Shown here: positions 2,282 through 21,062 of the stretch, piece after piece | Numbering within the stretch: the first letter of the stretch is position 1 | Layout of the letters: each line of letters opens with the position of its first letter | Virus record (IMG/VR): IMGVR_UViG_3300027833_000246 | Coordinates: 1-21,299 of that record | DNA length: 21,299 nt | Source of the DNA: a virus | Strand: one strand, 5' to 3' | Program-made: the position numbers and the translations under genes | Notes under the pieces: generated by a model | The model's input: only the letters and a program-made list of their open reading frames with translations | Databases searched by the model: none | What the model was told of the DNA's origin: nothing

Positions 2282-4195
2282 ATGGCCTCTAATTACACCA
2301 ACTACCGCGCAGAGTTTACACCACTGAACGACGGCATTGTCGTCGACCTCTCCGACCACGCTGACGCGCTAACCCAATACGAAGACATTTCCTCTCTCCT
2401 TACGGATGAGCAGGAGCAGCGTCTTGTCCAGTATGTTAAGTCTGCGATGCAGATGTCTTACGACCGCATCTCGAGGCGATACGATCATTGGAAGCAGGCA
2501 GACCGAGCGCACGACGTGTACGTTCGCCCGGACGCTACATCTTTTAAAGAGAAGGCGGTCATTGCAGATACGAGAGCAATCGCCGACACCGTTCTTACAT
2601 ATTTGATGGCAGCTCTAACTGGCCGCAATCCAATGTTCCAACTTGAAGGTCTCAATAGAAAGTCGCGGAAGTCTTCTGCGATCATCGAGCGCCTTCTCCA
2701 TCAGCAAATGCGCCGCACGGCAGGGGAGGCCCGAATTGCCCAACACCTTTTGGACTGTATCAGGTATGGGTACGCGCCCACCAAAGTCACATGGAACGCC
2801 AACACCCGATCAAACGAAATTACCAACTTCGACCCGCGCCGCGTATTCCACGACCCCAGATGCCAATGGGGAGATTGGGAGCGGATGCAGTACATCATCT
2901 TTTCTGATTTCTCATCTTATGACGCTCTACTCCAGACAGGCCTATACCCCAAGCTCGCCAAGTACCCAGCCCTCCGCAACCGCCTCACACCTCCGGCTGG
3001 TGGCTGGGACGGACACCGCTGGCACGCCGAAGCTGGAAGAGGACTAAGCATTGACCCTGCCGAGAGGAACCGCCGAGAGAACGGTGGCTCCTTCTTCACA
3101 TTGGGTGACAGCCGCATCGTAGACGAATGCTGGATACGTTTGGCCGGCTACGAGGTGAACCTACCGCAGCTTGACCATCTTTACATGGTCGTAACTATTC
3201 TGGACGAAGGCGTAGTCATCCGTGCCCAGCTCAATCCCTACGGGCGACAGTTCCCTACGGTCATCGGTGGCCTCTATCACGACGCCCACAAGACCTACGG
3301 CCAGTCCCTCTACGACTTGCTACTTCCTCTACACGATATTTCCACATGGCTACTTCGCTCTCGCATCGACAATGTTCAAGCGAGCCTTACCAACTTAATC
3401 TTTGCTGACCCTACACAGGTCGCAATCAACGACCTCATTGACCGCAACCCTCATGGGATCGTGCGAACAATGCCGGGAGTTGAACCCGGTAAGGGCGTAT
3501 TCATAGCCAACGTACCTGATGTAACCAGAGGCCACTGGAATGACATCGGCGCCATGTCTGAATTAAAGCAGAGACTTAGTGCCGCTTCCGACGCCCAGCA
3601 GGGTATGCCTACTGCCGAAGGTGGTGTTCGTACTGCTACGGAAATCCAGCGACTAACACAGCTTGGCTCCCAACGCCTCGGCGTTCTATCTCGGATTATT
3701 AGCGCTACGTCCGTTCGTCCGATGGTTCGGATGATGACATCGAACATCCAAGACTTCTTTTCGAAGGATGGTTCCATCCGTATCAGCGACGGTGATAGCG
3801 CATCTGCTGTCTCCTCGATGGTCGAAGACGGCTACCTCGACTTCAACATATCTGAAATCCAAGGCGACATTGACTACCTTGTCGTAGACGGCACGCTGCC
3901 ACTTGAGCCTACCCGTAATGCCGAGACATGGATCAACATGCTGAAAACACTCAACGAAACTGGCATGGCGATGGAGTACAACAGCGGAAAGATCGTTGAA
4001 GAGGCTATCCGCTCAATGGGCGTTTCTGACCTCGACCAGTTCAAGATAGGCAAAGAACAGCAAGCCGAAGGTCCAACGCCTTCTCAACAAATGATGCTGA
4101 TGGAGAAAGCTCGCGGAGCATCCGTACAGCCTCAGCAGCAAGTTGAGAATGAAGTTCAGAAGGGCAACCTCGTTCCGATAGGAGATAAGCGATGA
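2282..4195 (+). CDS. Portal protein
   Basis: A 637-residue protein directly after terL, the usual place for the dodecameric portal through which DNA enters and leaves the head. Portal-like features are the helical N-terminus, the stretch QHLLDCIRYGYAPTKVTW at 154-171 and NFDPRRVFHDPR at 182-193, a layout seen in large portals of short-tailed phages. The C-terminal roughly 50 residues are Gln/Met-rich (SQQMMLMEK, QPQQQ) and could be flexible or line the barrel. The ribosome site is weak: AAGAG lies about 12 bases before ATG 2282 in the 38-bp gap after terL. The 3' end overlaps the next small gene by 4 bp. Confidence 0.92.
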   Translation: MASNYTNYRAEFTPLNDGIVVDLSDHADALTQYEDISSLLTDEQEQRLVQYVKSAMQMSYDRISRRYDHWKQADRAHDVYVRPDATSFKEKAVIADTRAIADTVLTYLMAALTGRNPMFQLEGLNRKSRKSSAIIERLLHQQMRRTAGEARIAQHLLDCIRYGYAPTKVTWNANTRSNEITNFDPRRVFHDPRCQWGDWERMQYIIFSDFSSYDALLQTGLYPKLAKYPALRNRLTPPAGGWDGHRWHAEAGRGLSIDPAERNRRENGGSFFTLGDSRIVDECWIRLAGYEVNLPQLDHLYMVVTILDEGVVIRAQLNPYGRQFPTVIGGLYHDAHKTYGQSLYDLLLPLHDISTWLLRSRIDNVQASLTNLIFADPTQVAINDLIDRNPHGIVRTMPGVEPGKGVFIANVPDVTRGHWNDIGAMSELKQRLSAASDAQQGMPTAEGGVRTATEIQRLTQLGSQRLGVLSRIISATSVRPMVRMMTSNIQDFFSKDGSIRISDGDSASAVSSMVEDGYLDFNISEIQGDIDYLVVDGTLPLEPTRNAETWINMLKTLNETGMAMEYNSGKIVEEAIRSMGVSDLDQFKIGKEQQAEGPTPSQQMMLMEKARGASVQPQQQVENEVQKGNLVPIGDKR

Positions 4196-5363: not shown

Positions 5364-7202
5364 ATGGCAAACGGATTATTAGGAAAGAAAGTCGTCGGAA
5401 GTCGCGATACGGAAGTTGTTTATACGGTTCCGGCATCCCGCGTTTCGACAATGAATGTAAACATTGTTAACAATGGTTCTGAAACTGGCAACGTATTCCT
5501 TTACGTTTCAGACAAGAATTACCAAGCTGTTGACTTTGAGGGTTACACACCTCTCGATGATAGCTGGACGCTGGACGCGGAAGACTACTTAGATATTGTA
5601 GGCTTCGACCAGTCCTCCTTGATGGCTACCTTGAAGAACACATCTCGCGACGTGACAAACACAGGCACAGTCGATGTTGAGGTTACTCGGAAGATTTCAG
5701 TGGACAACACTGCTGGAACCATGACGGTTTCCGCTGTGAACGCCGCACAGAATGGAATGCCTTTGCCATTCCTTGACGACACCGAATGGTATGTCCGTTC
5801 CGCTAACAATGGTTATGTTTACACCCTTGCGAACTTCTTATCCAACGGCGGCGGAACACAAAGTGCAAGCACATGGGGCCAAAGCGCGACTGACAACAAT
5901 CGTTGGGCTACCAACGTAGATGGAAAGACTGGCCTCTGTTATGTGAACGGTACGCCTGCGTCTGGTTCCACGACAGTTTCGTTTATTACTGACTACCGCC
6001 GCAAGGACCAAGCAACTTACACAAACACGAATTGGGCCGCTGGTGCTATCTCTAGCTGCGTGGGCATTAAGACAACGGGTGAATACTTCCTTACTGGTGT
6101 TGTTTTCGGTACTGTCTACATTTCGTCTAATGGCAACCCAACAACCACAACCATGTTGCAGAACTCTCAGTTCTCTCTCTCGGCAGTTTCAGCCGCAGCG
6201 GGCGGTATCATGGTGGGTGCTACAGCATGTGAAGGCGGGTCTGCTGGATCGGGCTACATCTACATGGCTTTGTCTTCTGATAAAGTTATCTACTCGACTT
6301 ACGACGGCACCACTGCGGTTTCGTCTACGACTTCTGATTGGGAGTACGCATTTGACTTCCCATCGGGCGTCACTTGGGAAGACCTCGTAGATGTGCGTTG
6401 CGGTAGTGCAGCAAACGAATTGCTCTTAGTTACCGATAAGAAGGTATATCGCACAGTCGATCTGGGTGTCACTTGGACTAACACTCCTAACGCTGGCACT
6501 ATGCCTTACAAGATTACAGTCGCGGCTGACGCCGCTGGTGCTAACAAGTACAACGTGAACAGCATCCTTGCTGGTGAAGTTGAGTTGATCCGTGGCCGCA
6601 CATATCGTTTCTATGTTCACGATAGTACCGTCAACACGCATCCATTCTTGTTCTCCACAACCGAAAACGGAACTCATGCGACGGGTGGGGCAGCTTACGA
6701 CACTGGCGTAACCTACTACCTTGGCGACCCAGATGATGATGGGGATACGACGCAGAAGTACGATACTGCTTCTGACTACACCACGAACTTCGCCACCTAC
6801 AACGGCCAAGTAAGGTTTGTAGAAGTTGTAGTAGCTTCGGACGCGCCTGATACGCTTTACACTTATTGCCATACTCACAGCGGTATGGGCTTCAAGGTAA
6901 ACGTAGCAGATGCGCCGACCACGGCTCCAAACGATGATGAGACAATCATGGTCGCAGCCTCGATTTGGGCAACGGCAAGCGGTGACGTAACCAAGAAGTT
7001 TGATCTCTTTAAGAACGGCGAAACATACAGCCGTGAAAAGCGGTTCTTTGAGCTTCCCGAGGTAGACCTCTACGACAAAGCTGGACTTGGATCAGGTGCT
7101 CTCTTGGAGCGCACTGCAATCATGGCGTCTGCTGGTGAGCAAATCATCGTCAAAACATCGGGCGAAAACGTAGTCGTCCGAGTACATGGAATAGAGGAGT
7201 AA
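5364..7202 (+). CDS. Virion adhesin-like protein with cupredoxin-like insert
   Basis: A 612-residue, Thr/Ser/Gly-rich, beta-strand-rich protein with a clear AGAGG ribosome site. Residues 1-115 look like a small beta-sandwich, and the last roughly 35 residues (LERTAIMASAGEQIIVKTS, ending VRVHGIEE) look like its closing strands. The middle may thus be inserted into one domain; this is inference. Residues 140-380 contain repeated beta motifs with a WTNTPNAG/VYRTVDLG stretch reminiscent of propeller or sialidase-like repeats. Residues 382-515 resemble a cupredoxin: H426 (THPFLF) and C502-X2-H505-X2-M508 match the type-1 copper ligand order, with amicyanin-like spacing at the C-terminal loop. A DxDxDG loop lies at 455-460. 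The gene sits in a fibre cluster, so a virion surface role is likely. Confidence 0.85.
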   Translation: MANGLLGKKVVGSRDTEVVYTVPASRVSTMNVNIVNNGSETGNVFLYVSDKNYQAVDFEGYTPLDDSWTLDAEDYLDIVGFDQSSLMATLKNTSRDVTNTGTVDVEVTRKISVDNTAGTMTVSAVNAAQNGMPLPFLDDTEWYVRSANNGYVYTLANFLSNGGGTQSASTWGQSATDNNRWATNVDGKTGLCYVNGTPASGSTTVSFITDYRRKDQATYTNTNWAAGAISSCVGIKTTGEYFLTGVVFGTVYISSNGNPTTTTMLQNSQFSLSAVSAAAGGIMVGATACEGGSAGSGYIYMALSSDKVIYSTYDGTTAVSSTTSDWEYAFDFPSGVTWEDLVDVRCGSAANELLLVTDKKVYRTVDLGVTWTNTPNAGTMPYKITVAADAAGANKYNVNSILAGEVELIRGRTYRFYVHDSTVNTHPFLFSTTENGTHATGGAAYDTGVTYYLGDPDDDGDTTQKYDTASDYTTNFATYNGQVRFVEVVVASDAPDTLYTYCHTHSGMGFKVNVADAPTTAPNDDETIMVAASIWATASGDVTKKFDLFKNGETYSREKRFFELPEVDLYDKAGLGSGALLERTAIMASAGEQIIVKTSGENVVVRVHGIEE

Positions 7203-7206
7203 TCTC

Positions 7207-8805
7207 ATGGGTCGCACACTTATCGGGGGTACGGCTGTAGCTACAGTCGCGCCCACACCAGCAGCAGCAGCAGGCGCAGCAGGCGCATCGGACAGTTCGG
7301 ACCCTCGCAAAGAAGGTCTGCCAATGTTTGCAACTTGGACGATGCACGACGACAACTTTCGTGGCGTCCAGTGTGCTACTTACGATAGCAACCAAATGCA
7401 GACGAATAACCCTTGGGCTTACTCTCTCCATAGTAGCCCCGGTTCTAATTACCACGGCGGGGTAATGACCGATAAGTTTTTTGGACGCGACAGCGACAGG
7501 CCATCTTGGTATCGCACGAACAGTGAGACAAGCACTAATAGCAACAGCTATATGATTGCTCGTACTCAAGAAAACTGTCACTGGCCCTCTGCACATTCGA
7601 TGAATATTGGCCCTACGGGCCAGTTCGCTTCTAATGTTATTGACAACCAGAACCACCGCATTCGAGCGCACTGTTACGCGACCACTCAGGTTCTTCCCGA
7701 AGGTGTCCGTCCTCGTATTTTCTTAGGTAGCTTCAACTCAAAAATATATAGAACACAAGCTCCAGCAGCAGGCGCACGCTATGGTGTTGGTGGGCAAGAA
7801 TTCGAGTTCTATGATGCTGAAATGACGGCAGCATTCCCTGATCTAGCCAACCGCCGTTACGGTGATAGCTACGGCATGTCTGGCTACAATGAGAAAACTG
7901 GCTACTATGTCTTGTTCACCAAGACCTCTAACGGCAATGTCGATATGTTCAAGTGGAAGATCGGTGCTGAATACCGCCTTACTGACCCGAAGGTAAATAT
8001 AAAAGAAGCCTTCCTCAACGCGACTGATTTTGAATATCGTCAGATGGACAGTGCGAGGAACCTTTCAACTGGTGAAGGCTACTATCGTGGCACTATTACT
8101 GTTGGTGACAATGGTTACTGCCGCTGGACGCGAATGCAGGAAAGCGACAGGATACAAACCCACTTGTTCCATTTGGACAGTTCGGTAGCCAGTAGTTTCA
8201 TCCACTCTAATACGCCTGACAGCACGGGTGAAAATTACGGTGCGCAGAGCAGCAACTACAGCTATTATATGAGCTTAACCACCTCGTATGGTTACGAACA
8301 AGGGCAGAGCCATATCGGCATACAGTATAATTCCACATGGGACAACAAATGGCATATGCACTTCTGTCAATACTACTATTACGGCTGTGGCCTAATGGCT
8401 TACGTTACCAGCACAGCCGACCCGCGTGTTTGCTATAGAATAGAAAGTCAAAACAGTAGCTATGGCATTTCTCCTATTGCATCGGGTACAACTGGTTTTA
8501 TCCTTAGTAGGTCTCAAAACTCTGACGGTCAAAACCATTACTGGCATAACTTCAATATGTTAGGTGCGGCGACGACATATGAGCAGATCGCGGCTAATAC
8601 CACTGCTGGTATGACTTACCCCAGAGGCAAGCTATTCACCTACACCAATGTTAATCTTACGGGGAATTACCAAACCATCCCCCAAACTGACCAAGGCGGT
8701 TTAGTTCCGTCTCACGGCTATCACTCCACCAACTACCCTGCGATGTTGAACGTAAACTGGTGGCCCACTAAAGACGGCATCATGCAATACCCAGGAGAAT
8801 ACTAA
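7207..8805 (+). CDS. Probable virion surface/tail protein, Tyr- and Asn-rich
   Basis: A 532-residue protein with a GAGGAG site 7 bases before ATG 7207. The N-terminal 30 residues are a Gly/Ala/Pro linker (ATVAPTPAAAAGAAGA) encoded by GCA-rich repeats near 7258-7290. The rest is rich in Tyr, Asn, Ser, His and Trp (for example YYYYGCGLMAY and NSNSYMIART), a composition seen in receptor-binding beta-structured proteins. No enzyme motif and no signal peptide are visible. It lies between the cupredoxin-bearing protein and a small acidic gene that starts on its stop codon, so it probably belongs to the same adhesin module. I do not recognise a specific family. Confidence 0.8.
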   Translation: MGRTLIGGTAVATVAPTPAAAAGAAGASDSSDPRKEGLPMFATWTMHDDNFRGVQCATYDSNQMQTNNPWAYSLHSSPGSNYHGGVMTDKFFGRDSDRPSWYRTNSETSTNSNSYMIARTQENCHWPSAHSMNIGPTGQFASNVIDNQNHRIRAHCYATTQVLPEGVRPRIFLGSFNSKIYRTQAPAAGARYGVGGQEFEFYDAEMTAAFPDLANRRYGDSYGMSGYNEKTGYYVLFTKTSNGNVDMFKWKIGAEYRLTDPKVNIKEAFLNATDFEYRQMDSARNLSTGEGYYRGTITVGDNGYCRWTRMQESDRIQTHLFHLDSSVASSFIHSNTPDSTGENYGAQSSNYSYYMSLTTSYGYEQGQSHIGIQYNSTWDNKWHMHFCQYYYYGCGLMAYVTSTADPRVCYRIESQNSSYGISPIASGTTGFILSRSQNSDGQNHYWHNFNMLGAATTYEQIAANTTAGMTYPRGKLFTYTNVNLTGNYQTIPQTDQGGLVPSHGYHSTNYPAMLNVNWWPTKDGIMQYPGEY

Positions 8806-11371: not shown

Positions 11372-12541
11372 ATGGCTGGTATTCAAGGCTTGCGGGGCAC
11401 AGGTACGTTCGACGTAGACTTCCGCCCTAAAAATTATCGGGAGCTTTTTACGCTCTTGGAACCAAACGGCAATGCACCCCTCAACGCATTGTTGTCAATG
11501 ACTTCTTCTGAAGCCACTGACGATCCCGAGTACAAAAACTTTCGCGACGAACTTCCTGAGCGTAAGTTGACCGTAGACGGTGCGGTAGCTTCGGCTTCTA
11601 CAGCTACGATCACTACGGACGCTGGCAATGACAATATGTTCGCTGTTGCTGGTACTATCTTGGTAAACTCTGCAACTGGCGAAGTAATGCGAGTTACTGC
11701 TGACAGTACGGCCACTGGCTTGACTGTTGAGCGTAACATTGGCGGCACAAGCCACACTATCGCAGACGGCGCCGCTCTCTTCATCTCAGGTTCAGCCTTT
11801 GAAGAAGGGGCATCTAGCCCAACTGGCGTCAGCTTCGACGCGACAGTAGCAACGAATTATACACAAATTTTCCGCACCGCATTTAAGGTGACAGAAACTT
11901 TGCGTGCAACTAACTTGCGCACTGGCGACAAAGAAGACGAGATGGCTACAAAGGCACTCAAGCTCCACATGCAAGACATTGAACGCTCAATGTTTTTCGG
12001 TAAGAAGCATGAGAGCAACGGTTCGTCGGCACAGCCACGTCGATTTACTGGCGGCTTGACTAACGCTATCTCAAACGTACTGGATCGCTCTACTGCTTCT
12101 GGCGTTATGACTGAGGATCAGTTTGACCGCGCATTGATTGAAGACATCTTTGCATTCGGTTCCAAACAGAAAATCATGTTCTGTGGCGCTAAGGTTGCTG
12201 GTCACTTGCAGAAGTTCGGCAAGGACCGTTGGGCACCGACTGTCGTAGAAGGGGCTTACGGGGTCAATCTTACCTCTTATAACACCTTCGCGGGTGATTT
12301 GATGGTGCACCTGCACCCTCAGTTCCGTCAGGTTCCGGGCATGGAGAATGCGGCGATTATCATCGACTTCCCATACCTCAAGTACCGCTACCTCGACGGT
12401 CGCGACACGTCTCTACTGCGTGATCGCCAGAGCGCTGATGAGGATGCAGTCAAGCACGAGTTCCTGACCGAGTGTGGTTTGGAAATGTTGCAAGACAAAA
12501 CTCACGCCTACATCAAAAACTGGAACGACATCGCTGCCTAA
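11372..12541 (+). CDS. Major capsid protein (SU10/DUF5309-like, HK97 fold)
   Basis: This 389-residue protein is the main shell subunit. The N-terminal arm (1-60) is followed by a beta-rich inserted module at about 68-145 (ATITTDAGN, GEVMRVTAD, GLTVERNIGGTS), as in capsid proteins of the SU10/DUF5309 type. The HK97-like core begins around 150. The helix KALKLHMQDIERSMFFGKKH at about 194-213 corresponds to the spine helix segment that is well conserved in this family. The C-terminal part is a beta/alpha P- and A-domain. It has its own leader with AAAGGA before the ATG and is closed by a strong terminator, consistent with high, separately controlled expression. Confidence 0.9.
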   Translation: MAGIQGLRGTGTFDVDFRPKNYRELFTLLEPNGNAPLNALLSMTSSEATDDPEYKNFRDELPERKLTVDGAVASASTATITTDAGNDNMFAVAGTILVNSATGEVMRVTADSTATGLTVERNIGGTSHTIADGAALFISGSAFEEGASSPTGVSFDATVATNYTQIFRTAFKVTETLRATNLRTGDKEDEMATKALKLHMQDIERSMFFGKKHESNGSSAQPRRFTGGLTNAISNVLDRSTASGVMTEDQFDRALIEDIFAFGSKQKIMFCGAKVAGHLQKFGKDRWAPTVVEGAYGVNLTSYNTFAGDLMVHLHPQFRQVPGMENAAIIIDFPYLKYRYLDGRDTSLLRDRQSADEDAVKHEFLTECGLEMLQDKTHAYIKNWNDIAA

Positions 12542-13013: not shown

Positions 13014-13441
13014 TGGTTGAGAAGAGCGTACAAAAACCTTTCGCAGCGGGCCTAGAGAAATTTAGCCCGCTTGAAGACTTAGTGCGCTCGGCTCTTGTTC
13101 GGGCTGGCAACTTCTCGCCATCTCGCGTTGACGGCGAAGTCATGATGATGATGATAGAGCTCGCTAACCGCGTGGTCGAAGATATTCGGAAGCACCCATA
13201 TCATGATGGGTCAGACATAGACTACTACAACGACCCAACCGAGTTTCGCAAAATTCCCGACATGATTATGATTGACGGTCTTACTTCTCACTACTTGATC
13301 CAACAGGGATCAGAGAAGGCCATCATGTTCTTGCAGATGTATCAGGCTACAATGACTGACACCCTGCTTACAAGAATGGATGGGAACAAGCGTTATTTCG
13401 CTAAGGTCATGGATGGCGGAAGTAACTCAAGGTATAACTGA
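13013..13441 (+). CDS. Probable head-tail adaptor protein
   Basis: A 142-residue, mainly helical protein with a Met run (EVMMMMIELANRVVEDIRKHP) and a GLTSHYLIQQGSEKAIMFLQMYQ helix near residues 90-112. Its size, helical content and place directly before the tail nozzle match head-to-tail adaptor proteins of short-tailed phages (the P22 gp4 or T7 gp11 role), which form a ring under the portal. I assign it by position and fold-like features, not by a signature motif. It overlaps the nozzle gene by one base (TGATG). Confidence 0.65.
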   Translation: MVEKSVQKPFAAGLEKFSPLEDLVRSALVRAGNFSPSRVDGEVMMMMIELANRVVEDIRKHPYHDGSDIDYYNDPTEFRKIPDMIMIDGLTSHYLIQQGSEKAIMFLQMYQATMTDTLLTRMDGNKRYFAKVMDGGSNSRYN

Positions 13442-14961
13442 TGGCGAGACTTACCTACGCACCCATTGCAATAAACTCTCAAGCCACGACCTACTATGGG
13501 TTTCGTGGCATTGATCGTTCGCGTGATATTACAGCAATGGAGCGCCAGAAAGAGCAAAACTTCTGGCTCCTAGACAACTGTTTTGTTGACTATCGAGGTC
13601 AGCTTATTCGCGATCCTAAATTCTTTTTACACAGTGGCTCCAACCGCTTCCCTGTAAAAGCGTTGCGTTTCTATAACCGTGAAGGCGTTGTCTTTGCGGA
13701 GGAAGACGCAGCGGAGACGCACCTTGCCTCAGATAGAGGACACCGAGTTGACGGGGCTTTCCCCAAGGACGCAATCGTCACAATGACGAACTTCAAAGGC
13801 AAGGTGCACATTTTCTCAGATGATACTCGGATGTACCGCTACGACGGCTTTGAGTTCTCTACGTCTACGGCTTCCATTAAGCCTAGCTTCGGAGTTCCAA
13901 TCCAGCGGCGTCTTGCGGTTTCTGGCTTTAAAGATCGCCCTACGACCATTGAGTTCTCTCGTGTAGATAACCCGGATATTTTCTTGAAGGAGGAAGCTCC
14001 TACCGAAGAGGTTACTCGCGCCAGCTTCATCGACATCTCCAACCTAATCGGTACTGCCGATGAGATCACGGGTCTTGGTACTTTTGAAGCCAACCGCCTA
14101 GCGGTTTTCACCAAAGACCAAACGCTTGTTTACGTTATCGACCCGGACTTCGAGCAGTGGCAGCTAGATAGCAGGGCAAACTTGCGCATCGGTTGCATTG
14201 GGCACAACACAATCGTGAACGCTGGATCAGACCTTCTTTTCTGTTCTCGACGCGGCATCCACTCAATTATGCGTTCTGAGCAAAACGGTATTACAATTGC
14301 TGAAGCGTCTTTGTCCGATGAGGTCGAGACGCTGTATCAAGAGTTGGTCAAGAGCACACCTGACCCTCGTATGATCTCAGCGGTCTATGACCCTGACGCA
14401 TTGGTCTACCACATATTCTTCCCGAGACCCGGCGGCACTCAAACCGTTCGGCTGTCTATGAACTTCCGGGCGGGCTACGAGATGCGAAACTTTCAGCTTG
14501 GCGACACTCTATTGCCGCGCTGCGGCACGTTTCTGGGTGGTCGCTTAATGTTCGGCACGGCTGATGGAGTTTATGAAGCTACGGACCGTGCCTTCGAACA
14601 GGACACGGGCATCGCTGATCTAAGACGTTCACCTATGGTTGCCGAAACTCCTGTTTTGTGGCTTGGCGACTTTATAGGAACAAAGAGAACACACACTCTA
14701 GTTCTCCAAGCCACAGGCAAGGGGCGTTTCTTTATCGACGCCGTAGACGAAGATGACCGACCGATGGGAAGTATAGAGGTCAACCTAGACCGCTTGCCCG
14801 GCGATCCTCATTGGGGCGATGCGCCCTTGAAGTCCGACTACACATTTCCATTCAATCACTTGTTTCGTGGCGTTCGTCTTCGCTTCCGAACAGAAGAGCA
14901 AGATGTAAACAGCGAAGTAACCATCATCTCGTTCGCCTTTCTAATGCACAAGGAGCGCTAA
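13441..14961 (+). CDS. Tail nozzle/hub protein, P22 gp10-like
   Basis: A 506-residue beta-rich protein. The N-terminus includes FWLLDNCFVDYRGQLIRDP (41-59), the opening seen in stabilisation/nozzle proteins. EFSRVDNPDIF (171-181), EITGLGTFEANRLAVFT (208-224) and the segment at 251-276 with GCIGH and LLFCSRRGIHSI are the repeated propeller-like blades expected of the gp10 family. In that family the protein forms the tail tube below the adaptor and helps keep packaged DNA in the head. This call, with no tail-tube or sheath gene present, is the main reason for calling the phage short-tailed. The gene is complete. Confidence 0.82.
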   Translation: MARLTYAPIAINSQATTYYGFRGIDRSRDITAMERQKEQNFWLLDNCFVDYRGQLIRDPKFFLHSGSNRFPVKALRFYNREGVVFAEEDAAETHLASDRGHRVDGAFPKDAIVTMTNFKGKVHIFSDDTRMYRYDGFEFSTSTASIKPSFGVPIQRRLAVSGFKDRPTTIEFSRVDNPDIFLKEEAPTEEVTRASFIDISNLIGTADEITGLGTFEANRLAVFTKDQTLVYVIDPDFEQWQLDSRANLRIGCIGHNTIVNAGSDLLFCSRRGIHSIMRSEQNGITIAEASLSDEVETLYQELVKSTPDPRMISAVYDPDALVYHIFFPRPGGTQTVRLSMNFRAGYEMRNFQLGDTLLPRCGTFLGGRLMFGTADGVYEATDRAFEQDTGIADLRRSPMVAETPVLWLGDFIGTKRTHTLVLQATGKGRFFIDAVDEDDRPMGSIEVNLDRLPGDPHWGDAPLKSDYTFPFNHLFRGVRLRFRTEEQDVNSEVTIISFAFLMHKER

Positions 14962-18399: not shown

Positions 18400-18810
18400 A
18401 TGTCTAAGTTTCGCGATGCTCTTTCGATTTGGACAACGGATGAGACCTACAAGGATTACCGATCAGAGGTAATTAACTGGCGTCTTGTACCTGCGGATGA
18501 AAATGAGAAACTTCGCGTTTACTATAGAGAGACTGGTGAGCCCTACGCAATGTTGACCTACTGCTTCCTTAAAGAAGATGAGGCTAAGTCAATGGATTGG
18601 TGGGGCGACGAAGCCTTCAGCCGCGAAAGCGGCGATCAATTATGGGTGATCGACATGATTGCTAGCGGTGGAAAAGACGACGTTTTGGCTGTCTCAAAGG
18701 ACATAAGAAAGTTCTTCTACGAGACATATCCAGAGTTCGAGACAGTCTACGCAATGAGAGGAAACGGTAGCCGCCGAGGGTGGTATCCAAATAAGGGTCT
18801 GAACACATGA
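18400..18810 (+). CDS. HlyC-like (toxin-activating acyltransferase family) protein
   Basis: A 136-residue protein resembling HlyC/ApxC acyltransferases, which add fatty-acyl groups to lysines of RTX toxins and share the GNAT fold. The match is the core SGDQLWVIDMIASGG (77-91), with D85 at the place of the functional Asp of that family, preceded by GEPYAMLTYCFLKEDEA (46-62), the RPVAYCSWAxLS-like strand. The family's catalytic N-terminal His is missing: the matching region reads TTDETYKDY and the protein has no His at all. It may therefore use different chemistry or only bind. No RTX toxin is seen; the direct neighbour is the LysM protein, whose start overlaps this stop (ATGA). Confidence 0.7.
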   Translation: MSKFRDALSIWTTDETYKDYRSEVINWRLVPADENEKLRVYYRETGEPYAMLTYCFLKEDEAKSMDWWGDEAFSRESGDQLWVIDMIASGGKDDVLAVSKDIRKFFYETYPEFETVYAMRGNGSRRGWYPNKGLNT

Positions 18811-21062
18811 ACACTTTCGCACAACTGATCGGCTTGAGCAAAATTAAACCTCAAATTCTCTACGGCGGCGGTGGTGACAGCGGTGGAGGAGGTGGTGGCG
18901 GTAACGACGATAAACCATCTCCAGCTCCAGCTCCAACTGTCTTTAAGAATGATTACAGCGACCCTTCCAATCCGAAGCTCGATACTTCGTCGGCTGTCTC
19001 CGCGCGGCGCAACGACAGCAACAATTCTAGCAGCTCTAATAACTCCAGTTCGGCCAATGCTATGACAGTAGGACCAGCGCCAACACAAGCTCAAAAAGAT
19101 AGCGGCGGCAGCAAGGGTGGGGGCTCTAAACCTGCGCCTAGCAGCGTTACGGTTGGCGCGGGCGATACCCTTTCAGAGATTGCGGAAGCCAACAACACGT
19201 CTGTTCAATCTATCATGGAACAGAACAACATTACAGATGCGAATAAGATTGCGGCTGGCGCAACTCTTAATCTTAGCAATACTACACAAGGTGCGAGTAC
19301 ATACGCTGGCGGTGTAGGCGCTACGCCAGTTTCTTCTAGCTCCAGTAACTCCAACAGAAGCAGCGCAGACGATTACTTTGCCAAGCTACAAGCGGCAGGC
19401 GAAGCCGATCAGAGTGCGCTAGATGCAGTAGCGGCTCCGTACACACCTGTCGCCTCTACGCCAGCGACCGTATCTGCGGTTAACGAATACTACACGGGCG
19501 GGGCTGGCGCTGCTGGCGCAACCTCTGCCGTAGATTACAGCACTACGAGCTCTGGCAACAATTATGTGGCGGCAGCTCAGGCTGATGACAACACTGGCGG
19601 CGTCGAAGGCAATAGCTTCGTAGAAGCTGCGATAGTAAACCCTTCAGCTAATCCTACTGTTTCAAATAGCGGTACAGAAAACATAGAAGTTGGGGCCGTA
19701 AATGTACCCGGAGCTCCGGGTCAATTTGGTGCTGGATACGACTATGCGGAAGATGAGCTTAGTGCACTCGATCAGATTGCCGAGACAAATTTCAATAATA
19801 ACACATCAGGCATATATGAAGCTTTGAAAAATTCTCAAAACACAAACACAGACAGTTTGTATTTAAACGGGGACAGCGTTCTAGGAGCGGGCGCGTATGC
19901 TCAGGGGGATCAAACCCAAAGCATAGACTATATAAGCACGAACTCGGGCAACAACTTCAACGAAGCTGCGGAAGCGGATACTGGAAACCTTGGTGCTGAT
20001 ACAAGTTCCCTTAGCGTGGACTTGACTGGTCAGGATAAGTTCAGTGGTTACGACAATGGCATCTACTTCCAGAACGGGGTGCCGTTGAATGGATACCGGG
20101 ATGGCGTCTATTACTACAAGGGCCAAACCTACAACAATGGCTCAGATTACACCGCCGCTAAAAATGCAGACGAAGAGACCGTAATGTCCCAAGAAGTCAC
20201 GGGCACTGGCACAACCAATACTGGTACAAATACTGGTACAAATACTGGTACAAATACTGGTACAACCAACACAGGCACGACCAATACGGGTACAACCAAC
20301 ACAGGTGCAACTAATACTGGCTCAACAAATACGGGCGGTGGTGACACCAATACGGGTGGCGGTGATACCAACACCGGCGGAACTGTAACTAATGAAGAAG
20401 CCGAAACTGTCACGGAAGTAATCACAGGTGGCACTGATGAGGCTGATGTAGATGGATCAACCACCACGCCTTATACGGGCGATGATGGCTTGATCTATAA
20501 CGCGGATGGCACCCTCTATGAGGGTGAGTACACCTACAACGGCGTAACATATATTCTTGCTGGCGGTGCAGTTATTGGCACGGCAGGCGTCGAGATAGAT
20601 TATCAAGGCGGTGGGTCGACAACAGCGGGCGACGGGTCAGCGGGCGGCGCTTCGGGCGACGCAGCTTTTGTAGATACAAACCAAGACGGTGAAATATCTT
20701 CACTTGAGCAAGAGATCGCAAACTTGCGGTCGCAGTTAGCCCAGCTCACAGGGGCGTCCACTAACGAAACATCGGGCATGACGCGAGAAGAGATAATATC
20801 TGCAATCAACTCTGCGATGCAGAACTATAACTCGAACAACTATGATCCTCTCGCATTCCAAAACGCATTTGGCTTTTCAACTAACCCGACTTTCTTTGGG
20901 AACACGATCTCAACCATGTCTCAAGATGGTGTTTACAGGCGTCAAGCGGTTAAGGATCGCGACACTGGAGAAATCCGCTACGTCAATGTTCCTATCAATC
21001 CTCAAGGCGGTATAAACTCCTACCGCAAAGAGCGCCGTGGTGGTTTTGGTAGCTTAATATAA
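18807..21062 (+). CDS. Large virion protein with LysM, TNTG repeats and EF-hand loop
   Basis: A 751-residue, low-complexity-rich protein. In order: a Gly-rich N-terminus (20-33); a Ser/Asn linker (69-84); a LysM-type peptidoglycan-binding domain at about 113-157 (TVGAGDTLSEIAEANNTS, IMEQNNI); two copies of a DYxxTxSGNNxxxAAxAD motif (243-260 and 374-391); a GxYxxNGxPLNGYRDGVYYYKG segment (417-439) echoed at 558-587; a TNTG repeat tract (466-525); a canonical EF-hand loop DTNQDGEISSLE (623-634) running into a short coiled coil (634-650); and a basic end. It has no signal peptide. It is likely an ejected or tail protein acting at the cell wall. It starts within the HlyC-like gene's stop. Confidence 0.82.
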   Translation: MNTFAQLIGLSKIKPQILYGGGGDSGGGGGGGNDDKPSPAPAPTVFKNDYSDPSNPKLDTSSAVSARRNDSNNSSSSNNSSSANAMTVGPAPTQAQKDSGGSKGGGSKPAPSSVTVGAGDTLSEIAEANNTSVQSIMEQNNITDANKIAAGATLNLSNTTQGASTYAGGVGATPVSSSSSNSNRSSADDYFAKLQAAGEADQSALDAVAAPYTPVASTPATVSAVNEYYTGGAGAAGATSAVDYSTTSSGNNYVAAAQADDNTGGVEGNSFVEAAIVNPSANPTVSNSGTENIEVGAVNVPGAPGQFGAGYDYAEDELSALDQIAETNFNNNTSGIYEALKNSQNTNTDSLYLNGDSVLGAGAYAQGDQTQSIDYISTNSGNNFNEAAEADTGNLGADTSSLSVDLTGQDKFSGYDNGIYFQNGVPLNGYRDGVYYYKGQTYNNGSDYTAAKNADEETVMSQEVTGTGTTNTGTNTGTNTGTNTGTTNTGTTNTGTTNTGATNTGSTNTGGGDTNTGGGDTNTGGTVTNEEAETVTEVITGGTDEADVDGSTTTPYTGDDGLIYNADGTLYEGEYTYNGVTYILAGGAVIGTAGVEIDYQGGGSTTAGDGSAGGASGDAAFVDTNQDGEISSLEQEIANLRSQLAQLTGASTNETSGMTREEIISAINSAMQNYNSNNYDPLAFQNAFGFSTNPTFFGNTISTMSQDGVYRRQAVKDRDTGEIRYVNVPINPQGGINSYRKERRGGFGSLI
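20202..20381 (+). repeat. TNTG-coding minisatellite
   Basis: An in-frame tract of 12- and 15-base units coding TNTG, TTNTG and GGDTNTG. It includes three consecutive identical 12-mers (ACAAATACTGGT, about 20223-20260), then more diverged 15-base units with TTNTG and GGDTNTG. The tract is prone to slippage and keeps frame when whole units are gained or lost. Confidence 0.85.

Follow-up and report, generated by a model that had tools for sequence, protein, structure and literature searches.

Type-1 copper proteins hold their metal with a His, Cys, His and Met in that order. In most cupredoxins a complete type-1 set is an electron-transfer site, and its Met is the kind of soft ligand that copper sites typically have. 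The closest described relatives of the domain analysed here are amicyanin (PDB 1aac) and plastocyanin, both of PF00127, which share with it the H-C-H-M order, a Cys at a strand end, His and Met in the next loop and then the last strand; the C-X2-H-X2-M spacing is that of amicyanin. Unlike these proteins, the phage family has its domain built into large phage structural proteins. Rusticyanin, AcoP and the fused cupredoxin domain of copper nitrite reductase, which gave the best fold matches, are soluble or enzyme-linked electron carriers, unlike the phage domain, and rusticyanin also has different ligand-loop lengths. Cyanophages carry plastocyanin (petE) as an auxiliary gene; this too is a cupredoxin from marine phages, but it is a stand-alone photosynthesis gene, whereas the present cupredoxin is one domain within a virion-type protein from a structural gene cluster. 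To our knowledge, phage-tail metal sites are known mainly for iron and zinc, and our search of open-licence papers found no report of cupredoxins in phage virions. HxH motifs bind iron in phage tails, as in the fibres of T4 gp37 and Alteromonas phage R22Y (PMC11705849), which likewise place a metal site in an adsorption protein but hold octahedral iron between His pairs, whereas here H-C-H-M lies within one domain.

We analysed a window of 21,299 bases, a single virus record, in which a preliminary description had seen a cupredoxin-like domain with a type-1 copper ligand pattern inside a phage adhesin. The cupredoxin fold and the type-1 ligand set stand, on the evidence of structure models, fold searches, profiles and conservation; the word adhesin is an attribution from relatives in tail fibres and baseplates. 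We give a probability of roughly 0.6 to the reading that the domain is a true cupredoxin whose type-1-like site is complete, that it belongs to a probable surface-exposed virion protein of a marine phage, and that it acts in the role proposed below.

A cupredoxin domain in a structural gene cluster

The window is an SU10-like marine phage contig, in which family searches identified a terminase together with a portal and a major capsid protein, both of SU10 type. A 612-amino-acid open reading frame lies between the portal and capsid genes, and the features of this region are:

2282–4195, portal protein (SU10-type), from a family match
5364–7202, plus strand, 612-amino-acid probable virion protein with a cupredoxin domain, from the reading frame, its translation and orthologues
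5364–6479, plus strand, N-terminal part (residues 1–372), of no known family
6492–6908, plus strand, cupredoxin domain (residues 377–515), from the AlphaFold2 model and its Foldseek matches to cupredoxins
6639–6641, plus strand, H426, first predicted type-1 copper ligand, in THPFLF
6714–6815, plus strand, loop segment with an insertion of about 25 residues (about residues 451–484), from the His-to-Cys spacing relative to compact members
6867–6869, plus strand, C502, predicted type-1 copper ligand, in YCHTHSGMG
6876–6878, plus strand, H505, predicted type-1 copper ligand, in the same motif
6885–6887, plus strand, M508, predicted axial type-1 copper ligand, in the same motif
6909–7199, plus strand, C-terminal part (residues 516–612), conserved among orthologues by alignment
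11372–12541, major capsid protein (SU10-type), from a family match

Outside the cupredoxin domain, Pfam and tblastn searches against phages recognised no family. The N-terminal part matched nothing in either search and contains one Asp-box-like motif, TVDLGVTW (residues 364–371); the C-terminal part weakly resembles a tail fibre-like protein of phage AcaML1 (tblastn E = 0.05). Five orthologues (L001–L005) match the window protein at 97–100% over the domain, and two diverged full-length orthologues (L155 and L156) retain the whole architecture in alignment and cluster with the window domain in the domain tree (support 0.94). Judging from gene neighbourhood and relatives, the 612-residue protein is probably carried on the virion.

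Conservation of the ligand set

The four residues named in the preliminary description occupy exactly those positions in the translated reading frame, and the spacing it had likened to amicyanin matches C92, H95 and M98 of 1aac in both the PDB sequence and the alignment. A scan of IMG/VR with the pattern TLYY[YIV]CxxH[SA], which leaves only H426 and M508 free to vary, yielded 79 aligned domains among the matches listed, and each of the four ligands is present in all of them. Because this pattern fixed the Cys and the second His, we rescanned with two patterns from the N-terminal half of the domain, [FL]STT[SA][ND]G[TS]H and [GS]G[SA]xY[TNS][TS]GVT, neither of which contains a ligand; among the matches listed, 83 of 83 distinct copies have the His and C-X2-H-X2-M. 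The His, Cys, His, Met order of type-1 copper proteins therefore holds in every copy of both sets, and because of this invariance we dismiss a chance origin of the four ligands. The residue after the first His is Pro in 76 of the 79 domains, resembling the HP motif of multicopper oxidases in alignment, whereas amicyanin and plastocyanin have Asn. An iron site of the HxH type was considered and rejected, as H503 of the local HTH is His in only 8 of the 79; a multicopper oxidase was rejected as well, given a single domain, absent type-2/3 ligands (HxH motifs) and no match to a multicopper oxidase family.

The distance from the first His to the Cys is 76 residues in the window copy, 50–51 in 69 of the 79 relatives and 39 in amicyanin. 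An insertion had been guessed from the long gap between H426 and C502; it is real, amounting to about 25 residues relative to compact relatives, and comprises the acidic loop D455PDDDGD461 and a helix predicted by AlphaFold2 at residues 469–479. The DxDxDG loop described earlier lies within it (D455-x-D457-x-D459-G460). A calcium-binding DxDxDG loop as a family feature is unsupported, the acidic loop being unconserved in L155 and L156.

In annotated phages the four-ligand set is retained or lost nearly as a whole. It is intact in gp9, in the first copy of gp10-like proteins, in the second copy of P-HM2 gp7 and in tail fibres; neither the second gp10-like copy nor the first copy in P-HM2 gp7 has it in full, and in the PSS2 protein Met is the sole ligand left. 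In some virion copies three ligands, or all four, have gone together. The profile alignment ends before the C/H/M loop in three of the four degenerate gp10-like copies, and residues there were read by eye; the copy in L015 still has the first His. Selection has very probably maintained the metal site, and the persistence of ligand-free virion copies indicates that the fold can serve without metal. The gp10-like proteins (L014–L017) have tandem cupredoxin-like domains, of which the first has every ligand and the second lacks the C/H/M set.

Predicted fold and sequence link to cupredoxins

Template-free AlphaFold2 models were obtained for window residues 373–518 (nucleotides 6480–6917; pLDDT 86.2, pTM 0.83) and for a compact relative, L051 (pLDDT 97.8, pTM 0.90). 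In Foldseek searches of the PDB the great majority of the best matches were cupredoxins. These searches matched the window model to CueO (3.8e-4), AcoP (5.8e-4), plastocyanin, laccases and nitrous oxide reductase, and the compact model to nitrite reductase, rusticyanin, McoA, CueO and amicyanin, with three non-cupredoxins among its top 50. All E-values for the compact model exceed 0.001, so its weight lies in the consistency of the matches; TM-scores to solved cupredoxins are moderate (0.4–0.6). The models and their PDB matches indicate a Greek-key β-sandwich of cupredoxin type, and the segment almost certainly has the cupredoxin fold, as had been claimed; amicyanin and plastocyanin, the suggested structural references, are among the solved proteins matched. 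In the compact model the first His stands just before strand 49–52, the Cys ends strand 93–97 and the His and Met lie within the loop preceding strand 105–108, which is the ligand layout of amicyanin. These secondary-structure positions and the profile alignment, the two lines of evidence here, suggest that the four ligands could lie within bonding distance. BFVD matches to the model include A0A481Z6J5 and A0A481YVH3, β-sandwich proteins from Pithovirus and Marseillevirus LCPAC/LCMAC genomes, so giant viruses may have this domain or one that resembles it.

Single-sequence searches of the window domain against Pfam and the PDB returned nothing significant, so its link to cupredoxins runs through the family profile. 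Alignment of the family with amicyanin and plastocyanin by hhalign gave P of about 4e-4 with Cys, His and Met in register, and hmmsearch of the PDB ranked a copper nitrite reductase first (E = 0.0074). We give no weight to an HMM search of the PDB with a larger alignment, which matched one pseudoazurin and, without significance, antibody chains. PF00127 (Copper-bind) is the commonest family match among members, reached by 16 of 79 at E up to 1 (best 9.8e-5). The expected cupredoxin profile match is thus found in the family but not in the window copy itself: neither the window domain nor record G000 matched PF00127, and as the curated cut-off was missed, we file the domain under the cupredoxin superfamily and not under Copper-bind. 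NCBIfam gave weak halocyanin and amicyanin matches, each in one relative. Some members of alignments A1/A2 match PF25489, an At5g54830-like domain (best 1.1e-4), hinting at a possible eukaryotic relative.

Distribution in marine phages and bacteria

Similar HSGMG stretches had been suggested for marine phage structural proteins, and they prove to be real and widespread. By tblastn, the window domain matched 198 phage records, all of them, by their names, cyanophages, pelagiphages or other marine viruses, and a compact relative matched 118; the C-terminal copy of cyanophage gp9 matched 338, almost all of them cyanophage and one named Actinomycetia. Plasmids yielded no relative of the domain. 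Two IMG/VR pattern scans each returned at least 600 rows, so the domain family is very common there. Annotated relatives are T4-like baseplate wedge proteins, the gp9 fibre connector, tail fibres and virion structural proteins; cyanophages have the domain in baseplate proteins and tail fibres, and pelagiphages in tail fibres. The cyanophages S-TIM5 and P-SSM2 are among those with the domain in virion-type proteins. One relative has a T7-type tail fibre N terminus (PF03906, 3.8e-37), and one is a fibre with collagen repeats. Pfam and PHROGs leave the domain unnamed, and our reading, if true, would supply a functional label.

We also found 56 loci with the domain in marine bacterial and archaeal assemblies. 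At least 24 bacterial proteins start with a lipobox and then glycines and are predicted lipoproteins, which indicates that the domain works beyond the cytoplasm; such exported proteins would fit a copper site that is loaded there. Marine Gammaproteobacteria such as SAR86, Woeseiaceae and K189A are among the carriers of these lipoproteins. Some of these lipoproteins have cadherin-like repeats or an HEYYH protease-like motif ahead of the domain, as read by eye, and some of the remaining assembly loci resemble phage genes. The lipoprotein copies do not form a single clade in the domain tree, which therefore does not fix the direction of transfer. In the lipoproteins L137, L127, L138, L126, L136 and L108 the family domain lies at or near the C terminus, and L136 and L108 have an additional HEYYH/HEYFH metalloprotease-like motif.

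Proposed role and alternatives

The identity of the cupredoxin domain is strongly supported. Copper binding by the domain is likely, judging from sequence and models, and copper is probably the metal bound. We propose that the domain would acquire its copper once out of the cytoplasm, either during lysis or in seawater, and that the bound metal would tie the strand end (Cys), the next loop (His and Met) and the neighbouring strand (first His) into a rigid knob. Such a knob would help the virion attach to the surface of its host or help the adsorption apparatus assemble; it would not act as an electron carrier. The domain is thus, we infer, most likely a copper-stabilised surface module of the adsorption apparatus, although we consider the odds of a surface-binding or stabilising role rather than a redox one to be about even.

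We considered several other explanations. The copper-loaded domain might mimic the bacterial cupredoxin lipoproteins, docking as a Trojan horse to their partner or to a copper-uptake receptor and so starting adsorption. The presence of the same domain in lipoproteins of SAR86, Woeseiaceae and K189A speaks for this, although we know of no such partner, and the hosts of isolates (Synechococcus, Prochlorococcus, Pelagibacter and Methylophilales) are mostly other taxa than the lipoprotein carriers. Even with an analogous idea for iron and the HxH motifs of phage tails (PMC11705849), we regard mimicry as unlikely. Slightly less likely still is that the site exchanges electrons with the host surface or performs copper chemistry on it, as its complete type-1 set and its fold matches to rusticyanin and plastocyanin might suggest. 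Against this, nothing in a virion supplies electrons, the neighbouring genes in the window showed neither a partner redox protein nor a second copper centre, and the domain lacks the type-2/3 copper ligands that multicopper oxidases have.

We assign the same low likelihood to a β-sandwich in which the four residues hold a different metal or act in folding alone. Ligand-free copies do persist in cyanophage gp10-like proteins, P-HM2 gp7 and PSS2, but a purely structural role would not need the invariance of all four ligands, Met included, in intact copies. Chance resemblance within an unrelated Ig-like domain, to which the empty single-sequence searches and weak profile matches to antibody domains might point, is contradicted by four-ligand conservation, fold matches and Copper-bind matches, and we consider it very improbable.

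A type-1 copper site invariant in most copies of this baseplate and fibre-protein domain would tie virion function, in phages that infect the ocean's most abundant bacteria, to a trace metal, copper, that is both scarce and toxic at sea. More tentatively, and with somewhat less than even confidence, blue-copper domains loaded with copper may be widespread on the adsorption apparatus of marine phages and shared with surface lipoproteins of marine bacteria, in which case virions would be a copper-binding pool and copper an adsorption factor.

Other genes in the window

Adjoining the cupredoxin protein, positions 7207–8805 encode a 532-residue protein without a Pfam or PHROG match. A 506-residue protein (13441–14961) matches phrog_5107, labelled amidase (3.8e-11); Pfam finds no enzyme domain in it, and the amidase label is possibly misleading. 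A 751-residue protein (18807–21062), distal in the structural cluster, has a LysM domain (5.8e-10) and TNTG repeats and is possibly a peptidoglycan-binding virion protein.
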